A stretch of DNA of 22,814 nt, taken from positions 1 through 22,814 of IMG/VR virus record IMGVR_UViG_3300044858_003082; one strand, 5' to 3'. The DNA is from a virus. The translations under genes were made by a program, and so were the position numbers. Positions 2,339 to 19,685 of the stretch are shown here, in pieces. The notes beneath the pieces were generated by a model that made no database searches, had not been told where the DNA came from, and was given only the letters and a program-made list of their open reading frames with translations. How positions within the stretch are numbered: position 1 is the stretch's first letter; the number at the start of each line of letters is the position of its first letter.

Positions 2339-3934
2339 TTACCCCATAAATCCAAAGTCTTGAAGGACCTTGAGCGCTCCGCTAGATACTTCATCTCTAG
2401 CACTCTGTGTGTACTGCCAACGATTGTCTTGACGCAACGCACGCTTGAAATCAAATAGGTTCATATCGCCCTTATCTGTAATAGCAGAACGTAGTGTTGG
2501 GTCATTAAGATCAATCATATCTGGGTTAATCTCAAGCTCTGTAGCCATTTGTCTTTTGTATGGAGCATATACATTCTCAAGGTCATAGCCTTGGTTGAGA
2601 AGGTTACGCACATATTGTGGCTGGCCTTGGGATGCAAGGACACGTGCATCTTGGGCCACACGATTGATATCAATAGTTCCTGCTGCAAGTCCCTGAAGAA
2701 CTGCCTGCTCGATATCTCCACCAGTTGCTACAGTTGAAATACCAGGGAGGATATCCTTCAAACTAAAACCATTTGCCTTAGCAATTGCTTGAAGTGTCTG
2801 GTAATTCTGTAATGCTTGACCACTGTATGCGGTTACATTCTGAGCACCAGTTCCAGTACCAGCAATGCTAGATACCTTGCCAATAAACGGAACAATAAGA
2901 GCATTGATTGCTAATGGGTCATCATCTAAGAATCCGTTATAGATCTTCTCAGCAACAGATTGTGCTTGCTCATCTGTTAAAGCAACGCCAGCAATTTCTC
3001 TTGCCTTAGCTTTAACAGCACCGATTTGCTTGCTAAGATATAAACCGTAAGTTGTCTTAGTTACATCTTCGCCAGCTGCACGAAGTTCGTTATACTTTTC
3101 ACGATCAATGATACGTTCACGCAAGGCTGGTGCGTTCTTCTGCCACCAAGAGGTACCACGTGCTGCAGCAAGGAACTTTTCTTTGTCCCAATCCTCATCT
3201 ACAGCTTGTACAAGGATCTTATCTAATCCTGGTACTGTCCTGAAAAGATAGTCAGGTAGGTCATACCAGAACTCTGTCTTCTTTAATAGTGTTTCAAAGT
3301 CTGAAGGCTTCTTTGTTGTGCCTGCAGGAGCACCCGTAGGAGTACCAGCAGGAGCACCAGCAGGCGCACCAGTAGGACCGGTGGCGCCTGTAGGTCCACT
3401 AACACCTGTCTTTGGTGGATTGCCTGTGGTATCAGTTTTTACTGGAGCGCCTGTAGCGCCTGTCTTTACTGGAGTTCCAGTTGGACCAGTTTTTACTGCA
3501 GGTGCGCCAGTAGGACCAGGCTTTGGAGTTGTTCCAATCTTAGGTGTTGCAACCTTGATCTCAGGGAAGTTTAACTCAACATCTGGAGCAATAGTATTTA
3601 AGCGACTTACGAGACCAGTGCGTTGGGACTTAAATGATGTGGTGCTTTCGCCACGAGACTCAGCCTTAGCAATTGATGCTTGAAGTTCCTTGAGTTTCTT
3701 GTTGATATCCAAGTATTCTTCAGCAGTCTTTGCTAACTTATTGAGTTTAGTTAACTGTGTATTTATCTGTAGTCGTTCACGATCAAGTTTGTCAATCTGT
3801 TGATTGATGGTTTTTATCTGAGCATCTGTTACAAATGGCTTGCGCTTATCTGCTTTTAGTTTGCGGATATCCTCAACTTTAGCAGAGTACTGACCTGAAA
3901 GTTTTTGTAGTTTAGTTTGGACTGCATTAGCCAT
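2339..3934 (-). CDS. Virion-associated protein with coiled-coil N-terminus and Gly/Pro/Thr linker (531 aa)
   Basis: No named family is recognised. Residues 1-115 are rich in Lys, Leu, Gln and Asp in a heptad-like pattern and should form a coiled coil. Residues about 136-207 are an irregular linker of GPTGAP, KTGATG and APAGTP segments, related in style to the linker of the next gene but less regular. Residues 211-531 are a helical domain (FWYDLPDYLFRTVPG near its start, the tail ending DFGFMG). The ATG overlaps the upstream stop as TAATG on the minus strand, so translation is probably coupled. Same architecture as the 591-aa protein (helical head, Gly/Pro/Thr linker, helical body), so the two may be paralogous or partner structural or ejection proteins. 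The function is inference. Confidence 0.78.
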   Translation of the reverse strand: MANAVQTKLQKLSGQYSAKVEDIRKLKADKRKPFVTDAQIKTINQQIDKLDRERLQINTQLTKLNKLAKTAEEYLDINKKLKELQASIAKAESRGESTTSFKSQRTGLVSRLNTIAPDVELNFPEIKVATPKIGTTPKPGPTGAPAVKTGPTGTPVKTGATGAPVKTDTTGNPPKTGVSGPTGATGPTGAPAGAPAGTPTGAPAGTTKKPSDFETLLKKTEFWYDLPDYLFRTVPGLDKILVQAVDEDWDKEKFLAAARGTSWWQKNAPALRERIIDREKYNELRAAGEDVTKTTYGLYLSKQIGAVKAKAREIAGVALTDEQAQSVAEKIYNGFLDDDPLAINALIVPFIGKVSSIAGTGTGAQNVTAYSGQALQNYQTLQAIAKANGFSLKDILPGISTVATGGDIEQAVLQGLAAGTIDINRVAQDARVLASQGQPQYVRNLLNQGYDLENVYAPYKRQMATELEINPDMIDLNDPTLRSAITDKGDMNLFDFKRALRQDNRWQYTQSARDEVSSGALKVLQDFGFMG

Positions 3935-14103: not shown

Positions 14104-14147
14104 GTGATCTCCTAAAATTTATTGGGGACCGGCCGGAATCGGTTTAT

Positions 14148-14187
14148 TTTTATACTAGGCGAGGAAGGTTTTATCTACCAGTAGATA
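14148..14187 (-). promoter_or_regulatory. Candidate late promoter with dyad operator
   Basis: On the minus strand the sequence reads TAGTATAAAAATAAA just upstream of the terminase ribosome site, a good -10 (TAGTAT or TATAAA). A perfect dyad TATCTAC-CA-GTAGATA (14172-14187; 7-bp arms, 2-bp centre) covers where the -35 would lie. The -35 itself (TGGTAG at 17-nt spacing) is poor, as expected if a phage sigma or activator is used. The dyad is the solid part; the promoter is inference. Confidence 0.45.
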
Positions 14188-14337
14188 GACCTATCCCCAC
14201 TAAAAGTACTGGGCAGGTCGGGCTTAACGCCCGAAGGAGCTACAGCGAACTGAGGGGTAAGTTAGTGCTCGGCCTAGGGGCCTCGCTAGAGGCCATACCG
14301 TTAACTGCTCAGGGCTTTTCCTATTAAAACCCCTTAC

Positions 14338-14413
14338 TATATATAAGGCAGGAAATTATCGTCATTTCCCGTTTTTAGAATGTGACCTTCATCACAGTAT
14401 ATATAACCGCAGG
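14338..14413. repeat. Paired TATATATAA direct repeats flanking a hairpin and CRP-type site
   Basis: TATATATAA occurs at 14338-14346 and again at 14398-14406, exactly 60 bp apart, each followed within 3 nt by CAGG or CGCAGG. Between them are a 6-bp hairpin GGAAAT-TATCGTC-ATTTCC (14351-14369) with a following CGTTTTT, and the TGTGA-N6-TCACA site. The 60-bp distance is close to six helical turns. Confidence 0.55.
14381..14396. promoter_or_regulatory. CRP/GlxR-type operator TGTGA-N6-TCACA
   Basis: TGTGACCTTCATCACA matches exactly the CRP-family half-sites (TGTGA, TCACA) with 6-bp spacing. In Actinobacteria this is the kind of site bound by GlxR/Cmr-type CRP homologues of the host. It lies in the noncoding hub, about 530 bp upstream of the first early gene. 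One such 16-mer could arise by chance, so the match is real but the function is inferred. Confidence 0.5.
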
Positions 14414-14594
14414 TCAGAGGCCAGATCGCAGCTTTGACTTTAGCAAATATTTTTTGTTGGGGAGTATACAGACACCGCGTGCAGAATTCAACAACGGGGG
14501 GTCCCTGTTTCCTGTCTAACGCTGCGGTAGAGGTCTAGCCTTGGACAGTTGCGGGCTGTATGTCTATGGTGTTTGGTAAAGAGATAGGGGCTGA

Positions 14595-14861: not shown

Positions 14862-14914
14862 GATCCCTGTAAAGCTCACTTACCTACTAAAGCTTTACGG
14901 ATAAGGATCTATAA

Positions 14915-15082
14915 ATGATTAAGAATAAGGTCTGCAGCTGCGGTGTATGCCTAGATAGTTATTGCAGCTCTAGCGATAGCAAGCTAACAATTGCAAAATG
15001 TTGGTGTGCAGAGTGTAAGGATACCCGTAAAGAGGCTAAATTAAATGCTTACAAGATTACTATTGTGAAAGGATCTATCTAA
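14915..15082 (+). CDS. Small Cys-rich (zinc-ribbon-like) protein, first early gene (55 aa)
   Basis: ATG at 14915 with AAGGA 7 nt upstream. It has six clustered cysteines in two Cys-x-Cys-x-x-Cys groups (C7/C9/C12 and C29/C31/C34) plus C17, which suggests metal binding. The same Cys-x-Cys-x-x-Cys pairs recur in the 149-aa protein two genes on. The family is unknown. As the first gene after the early promoter it may act early against the host, but that is speculation. Confidence 0.7.
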   Translation: MIKNKVCSCGVCLDSYCSSSDSKLTIAKCWCAECKDTRKEAKLNAYKITIVKGSI

Positions 15083-16015: not shown

Positions 16016-16029
16016 GTGAGTGACTCTCG

Positions 16030-16077
16030 CTCTCTTGCGCGGTAGCGTGAGAGGGCGGGGGCCGGCACCTAGCCGGC
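16030..16077 (+). other. Two adjacent hairpins between early genes
   Basis: CTCTCTTGC-6nt-GCGTGAGAG (16030-16053, one mismatch and one wobble) and GCCGGC-ACCTA-GCCGGC (16061-16077) lie between the 50-aa and 46-aa genes. There is no T-tract, so RNA processing or stability is likelier than termination. Confidence 0.4.
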
Positions 16078-16098
16078 TAAGTATGAAAGGGTTAGAAT

Positions 16099-16239
16099 AT
16101 GAATAAGAGTAAAGTATTTACGCGCTTAGTGGATAGTCATACACGCGAGATAGTGGGAGAGTGCGAACTAACACCCGCAGCGGTTAAGAGGTTAATCAAG
16201 CTCTACCGCGAGCAAGGCCTATGGGTGGAGGTAGCTTAA
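16099..16239 (+). CDS. Small protein ending in the EVA junction module (46 aa)
   Basis: ATG at 16099 with AAAGGG 7 nt upstream. The last codons (GAG GTA GCT TAA) encode Glu-Val-Ala and double as the ribosome site of the next gene, which starts by overlapping the stop. The protein is basic and helical (TPAAVKRLIKLYREQGLW), which could bind nucleic acid. No family known. Confidence 0.6.
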   Translation: MNKSKVFTRLVDSHTREIVGECELTPAAVKRLIKLYREQGLWVEVA

Positions 16240-16592
16240 TGATACACGCGCAGACTATAAACGCAGCCTCCCGCCGGGTAGTAGACACCTACACCCTAGA
16301 GAATAACTATCGGATCAAGATTTACACCTATCACGACAAGACCCGCAAGGCTTACCTAAGTGTAATTAAAGAGTGCGTAGTGAGAGAGACCGATACGCCG
16401 GGGATCTATTTCGAAAGATCCCGCCTATATGCAGACCTTAATCACCTATTAAAGAGTGAGAGGGCGACACGCTACGCGCTTAAGGATCTAACCGCAGCTC
16501 ACGCCGTAGCCCTAGAACTAGGCGCAGACTTACGCGATAAGAGCTTAGCTATCAATGCAGACACACCCGCGCAAGAGTTAGCTAACGCTTAG
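16239..16592 (+). CDS. Early protein of unknown function (117 aa)
   Basis: I place the start at ATG 16239, which overlaps the preceding stop (TAATG) and has GGAGG 7 nt upstream; an in-frame ATG at 16221 would overlap the 46-aa gene. An N-terminal beta-rich half (NNYRIKIYTYHDKTRKAYLS) is followed by a helical half (ERSRLYADLNHLL, LTAAHAVALELGADL). No motif is recognised. It ends in tandem TAG codons. Confidence 0.7.
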   Translation: MIHAQTINAASRRVVDTYTLENNYRIKIYTYHDKTRKAYLSVIKECVVRETDTPGIYFERSRLYADLNHLLKSERATRYALKDLTAAHAVALELGADLRDKSLAINADTPAQELANA

Positions 16593-16597
16593 TAGTG

Positions 16598-16636
16598 TAG
16601 TATCGCACTCTACCTATCCGGTAGAGTGCGGTACTA
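16598..16636 (+). other. Long perfect-looking hairpin (17-bp stem)
   Basis: TAGTATCGCACTCTACC (16598-16614), loop TATCC, then the complementary arm (16620-16636) with one wobble pair. It lies in the gap between the 117-aa and 51-aa genes. No U-tract follows, so it may be a partial terminator, an RNA processing site or a structured regulatory RNA. Confidence 0.65.
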
Positions 16637-16682
16637 TCTTACTAAATTAGTAGGATAGTTAGACAGTAAAGGGGTTAGAGCT

Positions 16683-16838
16683 ATGACAGTAGAGAGAGTG
16701 CGCCATAGTGGCGCGTATGTAATAAGCGATATAGCGGGAGAGGGCGCGGGCGCTTACCTATTTACCCGTACCTACTACGGCTACACGCTTAAGCAAGCTA
16801 AGCAACTATTTAAGATCGCACTAAAGGAGGCTAAGTAA
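16683..16838 (+). CDS. Small early protein (51 aa)
   Basis: ATG at 16683, first gene after the 17-bp hairpin; the stop TAA overlaps the next ATG. It is Gly/Tyr-rich in the middle (GEGAGAYLFTRTYYGY) with a helical, Lys-rich tail (LKQAKQLFKIALKEAK). The tail's AAAGGAGG is the next gene's ribosome site. Unknown family. Confidence 0.6.
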   Translation: MTVERVRHSGAYVISDIAGEGAGAYLFTRTYYGYTLKQAKQLFKIALKEAK

Positions 16839-17044
16839 TGGAGACTATTAACCAACTAATCAATGAGATCTATGAGGACAACTATTCTCACTTAGAGTTC
16901 GATGAAAATATGGGGGGCGAGAGTTGCTCTTGCCCTATCCATACTACGCTTAACACTATCGTTAAGTATAGAGACGGGAAAGAGGGCGATGACGTAGAGA
17001 CAGTATCTTGGTCAAGCTCTAACCCTACGGGAGAGGTAGCGTAA
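16838..17044 (+). CDS. Small acidic protein with CSCPIH motif (68 aa)
   Basis: ATG overlaps the upstream TAA and has GGAGG 7 nt before. The protein is acidic (EIYEDNYSHLEFDENMGG) with a Cys-Ser-Cys-Pro-Ile-His motif that could bind a metal. It ends in the GAG GTA GCG TAA module. Function unknown. Confidence 0.6.
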   Translation: METINQLINEIYEDNYSHLEFDENMGGESCSCPIHTTLNTIVKYRDGKEGDDVETVSWSSSNPTGEVA

Positions 17045-17208
17045 TGAAAGATAACAAGATGTGCCTAAATGATGATTGCTATAACGACAGAGAGTATGGC
17101 GACAAGATTACCTATTGGAAAGATCAATGGGGCAATATAAGGTTTAACGCCAAGATGTTAGACCTATGCTTATTCTGCAGAGTTGAGAGAGATAGGGAGG
17201 TAGCGTAA
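17044..17208 (+). CDS. Small Cys-rich protein (54 aa)
   Basis: TAATG overlap with the previous gene. Cysteines C7 and C12, then C42 and C45 (LCLFC), suggest a small zinc-binding fold. Ends in Glu-Val-Ala, with GGGAGG as ribosome site for the next ATG. Unknown family. Confidence 0.55.
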   Translation: MKDNKMCLNDDCYNDREYGDKITYWKDQWGNIRFNAKMLDLCLFCRVERDREVA

Positions 17209-17342
17209 TGAGCTACGACATCAACAATAATTGCGTAAAGTGTGACCAATATAAGTACGACCAACACAAAAAGAGTTGCGAGTACTATGTAAAAGAGACT
17301 TACTTAGAGTTCATCAAAAGAATTATGGAGGTAGCTAAATGA
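17208..17342 (+). CDS. Small Cys-rich protein (44 aa)
   Basis: TAATG overlap at the start. C9, C12 and C24, with a nearby histidine (H20), form a possible zinc site (CVKCDQYKYDQHKKSC). The tail reads Met-Glu-Val-Ala-Lys, a variant of the same ending, with ATGA overlap to the next gene. Confidence 0.55.
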   Translation: MSYDINNNCVKCDQYKYDQHKKSCEYYVKETYLEFIKRIMEVAK

Positions 17343-17497
17343 AAGATAGATACTTAGTAACACTAGAGATAGAAACCTATGACGGAGATCCTAAAAATTG
17401 GGATTGGTCACACTTATTAGTTAATGACAAAACAAAATTTATCGAAAGTCAATTCAAGGGTAGAGTACTACCGGAAGAGGGAGAGGGTAATGAGTAA
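17339..17497 (+). CDS. Small protein ending GEGNE (52 aa)
   Basis: ATG overlaps the upstream TGA (ATGA). GGAGG lies upstream. Tyr/Trp-rich beta-like N-terminus (RYLVTLEIETYDG, NWDWSH). The last codons (GEGNE) belong to an exact 21-bp repeat shared with the next gene. Unknown function. Confidence 0.55.
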   Translation: MKDRYLVTLEIETYDGDPKNWDWSHLLVNDKTKFIESQFKGRVLPEEGEGNE

Positions 17498-17585
17498 TCT
17501 AAAAGAGTGGGTGGAAGATCGCCAACAAAATGGTGATGATGGAACAGGGTTTGATGATTACGCAGAGGGAGAGGGTAATGAGTAA
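17477..17585 (+). repeat. Exact 21-bp junction repeat (two copies)
   Basis: Copies at 17477-17497 and 17565-17585 are identical. Each contains GAGAGG as ribosome site, an ATG and, in another frame, the TAA ending the previous gene. The first copy ends the 52-aa gene and starts the 31-aa gene; the second ends the 31-aa gene and starts the 44-aa gene. Confidence 0.85.
17490..17585 (+). CDS. Tiny acidic protein ending GEGNE (31 aa)
   Basis: ATG inside the 21-bp junction repeat, overlapping the previous gene by 8 bp. It is a short acidic peptide (DDGTGFDDYAEGEGNE). The weakest gene in the train: the repeat could simply duplicate a junction and leave a spacer peptide. Confidence 0.45.
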   Translation: MSNLKEWVEDRQQNGDDGTGFDDYAEGEGNE

Positions 17586-17712
17586 GTGGACAGTATGGGT
17601 AGGCGGTAGTGAAATGAGTAGTAATCTATTAACTAGAGGACAAGCCGTATCAATAGCTAACGATTGGTTTAATCGTGGTTATGATGATGTAGTAGTAGAG
17701 GAGGTAGCGTAA
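17578..17712 (+). CDS. Small early protein ending EVA (44 aa)
   Basis: I choose the ATG at 17578, within the second junction repeat, rather than the in-frame ATG at 17530, which would lie in the preceding gene. It reads as a small alpha-beta protein (KWTVWVGGSEM, GQAVSIANDWFNRGYDDVVV), similar in layout to phage proteins that follow this pattern but without a named family. Ends in GAGGTAGCGTAA, the junction module. Confidence 0.6.
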   Translation: MSKWTVWVGGSEMSSNLLTRGQAVSIANDWFNRGYDDVVVEEVA

Positions 17713-17870
17713 TGAACAGAGAATACTTAGAGGCTAAGGTAGACCTATGCCTTAATCAAGCTGAGATAGACTTACAACAGGAGGAGATAGCGAGAGCTAT
17801 CGCTAACCTACGCAGGGCGAACTCTGCCCTATCGCAACTGTTCGGGTTTGAGGAGGAGGACAATGAATAA
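17712..17870 (+). CDS. Small coiled-coil-like protein (52 aa)
   Basis: TAATG overlap; GGAGG upstream from the junction module. It is helical with a heptad-like pattern (YLEAKVDLCLNQAEIDLQQ, EEIARAIANLRRANSAL), likely a coiled coil. Its tail GAGGAGGAC also supplies the next gene's ribosome site. Unknown function. Confidence 0.6.
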   Translation: MNREYLEAKVDLCLNQAEIDLQQEEIARAIANLRRANSALSQLFGFEEEDNE

Positions 17871-18755: not shown

Positions 18756-19044
18756 GAACAAGGCACTTGCAGTTAGTTTCCTCAGAGCACTCGGTTACAA
18801 CGCACAACAGCGAGAGTGTGCGGTCACACTTTGGACCCGTGAGTCCAGGTTCGACCACCTTGCTCGCCCAAGAGACTCTTCGGGCAAACCAATTAGCTCA
18901 GCTTTCGGAATTGCTCAACTGCTTAGAGAACGTAGTGGAGAACCTGAACTACAAATCCTTCACGGCATACGATACATTGGTCACCGCTATGGAGGGAGTG
19001 CGTGTCGCGCTCTTAGCCACTCCGATAGACGGGGTTGGTACTGA
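18610..19044 (+). CDS. Membrane-anchored lytic transglycosylase-like protein (144 aa)
   Basis: Start chosen at ATG 18610 because AAAGGAG lies 5 nt upstream. A basic N-terminus (KRAR) and a hydrophobic helix (about residues 8-21, GSLIVIVGLLWAFIP) make a signal anchor or signal-arrest-release segment. The body (about residues 50-144) fits the lysozyme-like SLT fold: likely catalytic E78 in LWTRESRFDHLA, GIAQ (100-103) and a C-terminal RYGGSACRA..SHSDRRGWY common in actinophage and actinobacterial transglycosylases. Such enzymes cleave the MurNAc-GlcNAc bond of peptidoglycan. The first 146 bp are read in another frame as the 94-aa gene and most of the rest as a possible 101-aa frame. The stop overlaps the ATG of the methyltransferase. 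A role in lysis is likely, entry less so. Confidence 0.8.
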   Translation: MSKRARLGSLIVIVGLLWAFIPERTQSPTLPDVPIMKARTKATMEEKRENKALAVSFLRALGYNAQQRECAVTLWTRESRFDHLARPRDSSGKPISSAFGIAQLLRERSGEPELQILHGIRYIGHRYGGSACRALSHSDRRGWY

Positions 19045-19057
19045 TGAGACTACTTGA
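18752..19057 (+). CDS. Possible third overlapping ORF (101 aa)
   Basis: GTG at 18752 overlaps the 94-aa gene's TGA as GTGA and has GGAGG 6 nt upstream, the ordinary start style of this operon. The frame runs inside the transglycosylase gene in a different frame and 14 bp into the methyltransferase. The translated C-terminal half is helical (LAQLSELLNCLENVVENL). No family, no membrane helix. It may be a real nested gene or a by-product of the transglycosylase frame. Confidence 0.3.
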   Translation: MRTRHLQLVSSEHSVTTHNSESVRSHFGPVSPGSTTLLAQETLRANQLAQLSELLNCLENVVENLNYKSFTAYDTLVTAMEGVRVALLATPIDGVGTDETT

Positions 19058-19685
19058 TCTTTACTGCAAGGCTGGAGGAGCGAGCAAGGGATATGTTGAT
19101 GCTGGCTTTGAGGTTACTGGTATTGACATCAAGAAGCAGAAGCGTTACCCATTTACTTTTATATAGGCAGATTGCTTAGAGATACTGCAAGACTTAGATT
19201 ACTTGCGTACCTTTGATGTGATTGCAGCTAGCCCACCTTGTCAGACACACTCACGCACTCAGCATCTACGTAATGCTCAGGGTAAGAGCACGGATAAGGT
19301 AGATCTGATACCGCAGACAAGAGAAGCTTTGATTGCTAGTGGCGTACCTTACGTGATTGAAAATGTACCGGGTGCTCCATTGATTAACCCGGTACAATTC
19401 TGCGGTTCATCATTTAATCTAAAGGTGCGTAGACATAGACTCTTCGAGTCTAACCTGCAACTAATAGGTTCAGTGTGTGACCATAAGAAGCAGGGGAAAC
19501 CGGTAGGTATCTATGGATCTATGCGTGATGAGATACCTAAAGGTGGACACACGGCAAAGACTATTGAACAAGCACGCGAAGCAATGGGAATTGATTGGAT
19601 GATCTGGGGAGAACTTGTTGAGGCTATCCCACCTGTGTATACTCGTGCTATAGGCAAACAACTAATAGATGTGCTAGGTTCTTAA
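19044..19685 (+). pseudogene. dcm: C5 cytosine DNA methyltransferase interrupted by an in-frame TAG
   Basis: Read through one TAG at 19164-19166, this is a complete short phage C5-methyltransferase of 213 codons. Motif I is LDLYCKAGGASKG (4-16, SAM binding), motif IV has the catalytic Pro-Pro-Cys (ASPPC, C66), motif VI is VIENVPGA (E106-N107-V108), and the tail EAIPPVYTRAIGKQL is the usual motif X end. The enzyme transfers a methyl group from SAM to C5 of cytosine, usually to shield phage DNA from host restriction. The codon before the break is Ile40 and the frame resumes with ADCLEIL. In relatives the residue at this place is usually Gln (FIQAD), so one C-to-T change of CAG explains the stop. 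The gene may be dead, sequence error, or read by a suppressor. A TTG at 19203 cannot restore motif I. Confidence 0.75.

Follow-up and report, generated by a model that had tools for sequence, protein, structure and literature searches.

Do the closely similar sequences that close several small genes of this virus form a portable linker, through which one-gene cassettes are exchanged, or are they a translation signal on which unrelated genes have converged? The window analysed here, which is the whole virus record (22,814 bases), carries a cluster of small genes of about 30-150 codons on its plus strand, at about 14.9-19 kb, and genes for the terminase large subunit, a sigma factor and a DNA primase, among others, on its minus strand. 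The matches of the large terminase were all below 60% identity, the best being to Caudovirales sp. ct2KA10 (46%), followed by Streptomyces phages (43%); because the terminase resembles those of ct2KA10 and the Streptomyces phages, the host may be actinobacterial. A scan of bacterial genomes with the terminase returned no relative that would identify the host, a megablast search with the window region gave 0 matches among phage records, and all Pfam matches of the small cluster proteins lay below the curated cut-off.

Relatives were fetched from IMG/VR with the terminase, the OG0 protein and the OG87 protein, and contained copies were removed, leaving 142 loci. Genes were called with our own dynamic-programming script, which reproduced the gene chain of the window, and the 2,982 distinct proteins were clustered into 622 families. 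Some relatives are fragments and some loci overlap on one contig; exact duplicate junction contexts were dropped, and L126, which is the same phage as the window, was excluded from the later junction analyses.

Repeated junctions in a cluster of small genes

The stretch of the cluster that holds the repeated endings begins with the OG34 gene (16099-16239; 46 aa, ending in WVEVA, with a weak HTH_28 match below the cut-off) and the OG62 gene (16239-16592; 117 aa), and continues on the same, plus, strand with OG16 (16683-16838; 51 aa, ending in KEAK), OG20 (16838-17044; 68 aa, ending in TGEVA), OG87 (17044-17208; 54 aa, ending in DREVA; present in other gene orders in L128 and L164), OG71 (17208-17342; 44 aa, ending in MEVAK), OG10 (17339-17497; 52 aa, widespread among the relatives), OG54 (17490-17585; 31 aa), OG26 (17578-17712; 44 aa, ending in VEEVA) and OG2 (17712-17870; 52 aa, very widespread among the relatives). 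In most relatives OG26 also ends in EVA or EIA, with synonymous variants.

A motif scan of the window found GGAGGTAGCGTAATG exactly at 17196-17210 (OG87/OG71) and 17700-17714 (OG26/OG2), with one mismatch at 16227-16241 (GGAGGTAGCTTAATG, OG34/OG62) and 17032-17046 (AGAGGTAGCGTAATG, OG20/OG87), and with two mismatches at 17327-17341, in the OG71/OG10 junction (17327-17342; GGAGGTAGCTAAATGA). When up to three mismatches were allowed there were six hits for 0.58 expected, a number reached in 0 of 100 shuffles; the sixth hit (17602) is not at a junction. The five repeats that the original prediction had placed at small-gene ends were thus recovered, to within 1-2 nt and far above chance, and counting the motif elsewhere, as it had proposed, gave no further copy in the record at up to two mismatches.

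Read in frame, GAG GTA GC(G/T) TAA TG encodes Glu-Val-Ala-stop, and the following ATG shares 1 nt with the stop codon. The original reading of an EVA-stop ending (once EVAK-stop) with the next start in register agrees with the frames, but the copy at 17327 has a different joint: it reads GAG GTA GCT AAA TGA, or Glu-Val-Ala-Lys-stop, and overlaps the next gene by 4 nt in TAAATGA, without TAATG. Stop and start overlap at all five sites, by 1 nt in four and by 4 nt in one, and at every EVA junction the Shine-Dalgarno sequence (GGAGG) lies within the final codons of the upstream gene. The sequence at 16826-16840 (GGAGGCTAAGTAATG, plus strand, OG16/OG20), also predicted to behave in this way, is a true junction with a Glu-Ala-Lys-stop ending. 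Similar behavior had been proposed for copies at 14904 and 15069; AAGGATCTAT occurs twice (0.04 expected), and the copy at 15069 does end a gene (KGSI-stop), but the one at 14903 precedes the first gene of the cluster, as its leader. A second junction type, absent from the original prediction and as exact as the EVA type, is represented by GGAGAGGGTAATGAGTAA at 17480-17497 (OG10/OG54) and 17568-17585 (OG54/OG26), both on the plus strand and both with an 8-nt overlap and an EGEGNE-stop ending.

Three other features of the record are mentioned here for completeness. Two minus-strand proteins (560-2335 and 2339-3934) contain extended repeats of low complexity (PTGTPTGTPTG... and PTGAPAGAPAG...). 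At 19035-19685 lies a gene that by eye resembles a DNA cytosine methyltransferase; it is divided between frames (19035-19166 and 19203-19685), which may reflect a frameshift, a gene that is truly split or an error of assembly. Finally, a region of about 370 nt (14131-14502) that lies upstream of the terminase gene and has no long plus-strand gene is about 75-93% conserved in most relatives; an Rfam search of this region gave no match, the fold of 14104-14253 was not unusually stable (z -0.8), and the region is possibly a control region, a packaging site or an unknown RNA.

Register of the ribosome site and choice of the spacer

Among the relatives, the overlaps between plus-strand neighbours are mostly of 1, 4 or 8 nt (386, 377 and 285 deduplicated junctions, respectively). 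The 349 TAATG joints show a preference for GAGG at positions -11 to -8 (G 93%, A 59%, G 87%, G 76%), followed by five spacer bases that differ between joints; at most of these joints a Shine-Dalgarno sequence, GGAGG or GAGG, lies inside the upstream gene, in a fixed register and at a working distance. The endings found over 240 distinct TAATG family pairs include EVA (29), EGK (28), EGE (23), AVA (11) and EAK (11). EVA therefore makes up about 12% of the distinct TAATG joints, and since EGK, EGE and EAK joints exist beside it, the description of the repeat as a uniform linker was wrong. EVA endings were found 66 times, in 25 families, 60 of the 66 with a 1-nt overlap.

This frame arithmetic accounts for the endings. 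Each gene has its ribosome-binding site (GGAGG or GGAGGT) in the last codons of the preceding gene, whose stop codon overlaps the downstream start as TAATG, as ATGA or by 8 nt. The overlap sets the frame, so that GAGG at -11 to -8 is read as Glu-(Gly/Val/Ala...)-x-stop; a full GGAGGT gives Val, and the frequent last codons AAG, GAG and GCG give Lys, Glu or Ala. EVA is then one frequent solution to the combination of a stop-start overlap and a ribosome site, and unrelated proteins have common E-x-x endings because the ribosome site overlaps the gene end in a fixed frame. We consider it likely that the EVA motif is a translational-coupling junction, reached by convergence, and that gene shuffling at start codons is a separate, real process. 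The 15-letter match would mostly be an ordinary translation signal, invented repeatedly, and not a mobile linker. For annotators, this means that common C-terminal tripeptides of small phage proteins can reflect an overlapping ribosome site and not protein function.

Codirectional genes with a 1-nt or 4-nt stop-start overlap are common in prokaryotes, where termination-reinitiation coupling is described (Huber et al., 2019; PMC6728339). The phage junctions share the codirectional stop-start overlap with these pairs and, judged from their sequence, are probably coupled. In contrast to those pairs, both the overlap (TAATG and the 8-nt class) and the register are stereotyped in the phages, and unrelated proteins have common C-terminal tripeptides.

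The spacer TAGCG is in moderate excess beyond what the Shine-Dalgarno sequence and codon choice would produce. With one representative per upstream family it was seen 11.4 times against 3.6 expected when codons were shuffled among GAGG joints, and looser clustering gave 11.1 against 3.8. Moreover, the same 14-mer occurs twice in each of four loci (L014, L024, L027 and L040) that have no protein hit to this phage group, which argues that much of the match reflects repeated selection of one solution. The motif lies at a called gene junction in 88 of 113 motif-bearing loci without nucleotide relation to the cluster, although these loci were fetched by the motif itself and so overstate its frequency in phages at large. 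When the selecting copy was dropped, TAGCG occurred 2 times at the remaining GAGG joints of the unrelated loci, against 3.6 under the codon-shuffle null, and other EVA spellings (TGGCG, TAGCA and TTGCA) topped the list. No copy of the 9-mer, and few TAATG joints, were found in ct2KA10, in the T4, S-PM2 and SPO1 segments or in Stella, so the EVA junction is not universal. Independent use of the EVA junction in unrelated phages is clear; a special role for TAGCG is less so. From its excess over the codon-choice expectation and its appearance in unrelated phages we infer that TAGCG may be selected as a good re-initiation spacer. Very old recombination could also explain part of the excess, as could homology that is too faint for blastp to detect, although identity drops to background directly outside the linker. 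If convergence is the correct explanation, GAGGTNGCNTAATG should be enriched at the junctions of many unrelated phage groups once homologous genes are removed.

It is conceivable, though we think it doubtful, that GGAGGTAGCG-TAATG is a tuned re-initiation element, reached repeatedly by unrelated phages, which because it is repeated also serves as a recombination substrate for one-gene cassette swaps. Were this so, a swapped-in neighbour would be translated from the ribosome site of the gene in front of it.

Many plus-strand cluster genes of the relatives begin with ATGA or ATGARTAR, which places stops in both other frames. The ATGARTAR form was considered as a "frame-proof start" and set aside: in contexts where it is unused, the latent stop of the 8-nt overlap class was retained only somewhat above background (0.23 against 0.12), in part through OG2, and the A-richness of the starts could account for this.

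Gene gain and loss, and ownership of the linker

Gene order in the cluster is heavily reshuffled among the relatives. With the requirement that both flanks be at least 75% identical, we found 111 distinct cases in which genes A and C are adjacent in one phage and separated by a single gene B in another, with break points at the junction boundary; because the phages are related, their joints and events are not entirely independent of one another, and short proteins may hide homology. The idea of interchangeable one-gene cassettes, as originally put forward, is well founded in this respect, in that relatives differ by the gain, loss and reordering of genes, and the breaks at the junctions are clean. 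The arrangement OG26/EVA/OG2 of the window, for example, corresponds, as predicted, to OG26/EVA/OG65/EVA/OG2 in L214, where a 20-nt EVA repeat lies on each side of OG65; the same site (17700-17714 in the window) holds OG65 in L237 and L238 as well. L214 and L237 differ by the presence of OG20 between 13-nt repeats, with flanks 100% identical, L248 and L237 by one gene between 12-nt repeats, and L214 and L148, with flanks about 100% identical, show a 6-nt repeat. A 19-nt repeat is found in L240, in the order OG16/OG82/OG20. Assembly joins are possible in some IMG/VR contigs, although the best case of gain or loss was seen in two separate contigs (L214 and L215). In more than 100 natural cases, then, relatives differ by the presence or absence of one gene, and their flanks are close enough in sequence for the joints to be read.

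When only the upstream family was shared between two junctions, linker positions were 0.53-0.96 identical and spacer positions 0.56-0.84, and identity fell to near background past the start codon. When only the downstream family was shared, the linker was near background, as in unrelated pairs, and the sequences were alike from the start codon on. Spacers were identical in 17% for the same upstream gene (3% with shuffled labels) and in 6% for the same downstream gene (3%). Within one phage, spacer sharing was slightly raised (5.7% against 3.5%; 1/100 shuffles), which would fit some exchange between linkers. In the 111 cases of gain or loss the A/C linker was nearer to A/B in 73 and to B/C in 28, with 10 ties; that is, the linker is kept alike after a change of downstream neighbour. 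The same gene pair retains its linker, with drift, and we did not find the same gene order joined by unrelated junctions, an outcome that would have spoken for mere coincidence. The linker moves with the upstream gene, whose tail it forms, and, contrary to the original suggestion, is not independently portable. Since it assorts with the upstream gene, every cassette supplies the ribosome site of its next neighbour and not its own. The cluster is shuffled gene by gene, with breaks at the start codon, each cassette carrying the ribosome site of its follower; the cases point to exchange at the start codon, with the ribosome site staying with the upstream gene.

That phage recombination uses the repeated EVA module itself to insert or delete one-gene cassettes appears improbable to us. 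The repeats around OG65 in L214, in L240, and between L237 and both L214 and L248 are of the kind it predicts. Linkers beside variable genes are more alike than random pairs from the same phage, the longest run shared within the linker is slightly longer at variable genes (5.4 against 4.9, p 0.007), and shared runs of at least 10 nt, one of several thresholds examined, occur at 10 of 58 variable genes (17%) and 42 of 697 controls (6%; Fisher p 0.004). A strong effect of linker similarity on gene loss, however, shrank once matched for overlap class: compared with class-matched flanks of non-variable genes, mean similarity was 0.50 against 0.48 (p 0.12) and shared runs were 6.8 against 6.5 (p 0.13). 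In addition, most cases lack a long repeat, a common downstream gene hardly predicts the linker, and a linker tied to its upstream gene is not interchangeable. In general, the similarity of linkers is no guide to the genes that are gained or lost. Of the proposal that genes recombine between junctions, what stands is the enrichment of long runs, while mean microhomology is that of the controls. Because only the long runs are enriched, a minority of exchanges may use linker repeats, perhaps aided by 10-20 nt of identity; most need not. Recombination directed by linker homology is unsupported as a general mechanism, and selection alone is also able to place surviving break points at gene boundaries.

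We regard it as very unlikely that selection acts at the protein level, so that the C-terminal Glu-Val-Ala would have a function of its own, such as signalling proteolysis, and the DNA match would be secondary. Ortholog groups do hold EVA or EIA despite synonymous changes such as GTTGCA and GTGGCG, which would fit a functional tail. Yet EVA is nearly confined to places where a ribosome site and a start overlap, with the 1-nt overlap prevailing, EGK, EGE and EAK fill the same joints, and GTAGCG is strongly preferred at EVA ends (39/66) but makes up few of the Val-Ala dicodons in gene interiors (25 of 636). Equally remote is a common descent, in which the EVA genes would have diverged after duplication of a single ancestral cassette and kept its end: many cluster genes are small and apparently fast-evolving, so that distant homology could escape, but identity between EVA genes of different families is at background directly outside the linker on both sides, which makes hidden paralogy unlikely, looser clustering merges few families (upstream, 21 to 19), and the same junction occurs in phages without a protein hit to this group. 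The reading as a convergent coupling junction is the one that we retain.

Comparison with known repeats, and hairpin leaders

In Cluster K mycobacteriophages, the SAS and ESAS elements are short repeats just upstream of many unrelated gene starts; a role in translation was suggested, and the authors point out that recombination might also target repeats of this kind (Pope et al., 2011; PMC3203893). The EVA junction resembles them as a short repeat before the starts of unrelated genes in a phage cluster. SAS and ESAS, however, are tabulated by downstream gene family, whereas the EVA linker is coding and follows the upstream gene; the 13-bp SAS consensus, GGGATAGGAGCCC, had no match here at up to two mismatches. 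Short conserved boundary sequences have also been described as recombination points in phage mosaicism, as in the case of Island3 and Brujita (PMC3029335). As there, a gene is present or absent between neighbours and the flanking gene ends are similar. Unlike those boundary sequences, the repeat studied here is mainly a ribosome-site junction, and most cases are without long repeats. With its linker assorting with the upstream gene, the cluster comes nearer to illegitimate exchange followed by selection at gene boundaries.

T4-type mobile regulatory cassettes combine a promoter with a stem-loop, and small genes are shuffled as modules together with this repeated element. The cluster is similar in that small genes joined to a repeated element are shuffled, and different in that the EVA junction is coding sequence. 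A better comparison with the T4 cassettes is provided by two intergenic tandem-hairpin elements (16016-16098 and 16593-16682; fold z -4.8 and -5.3), after each of which come AAGGG(G)TTA and an ATG. Element A has 43 copies in the relatives, 42 of them after OG1, and stands before 8 gene families; its stem covaries, both partners having changed in 9 of 13 pairs. Of element B there are 21 copies, which precede 6 families. An Rfam search gave no match for either element in the window. Both elements resemble portable start modules more closely than the EVA junction does.

Leaders of the same kind in relatives, before AAAGGGTTA-ATG, contain a core that resembles a type II hammerhead ribozyme. They were found at 3193-3252 in L274 and at 3772-3829 in L281, and also in L180, L166, L190, L245, L272 and L280. 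The Rfam model RF02276 matched with an E value of 3.7e-6 in L274, just below the gathering score, and of 0.14 in L281.
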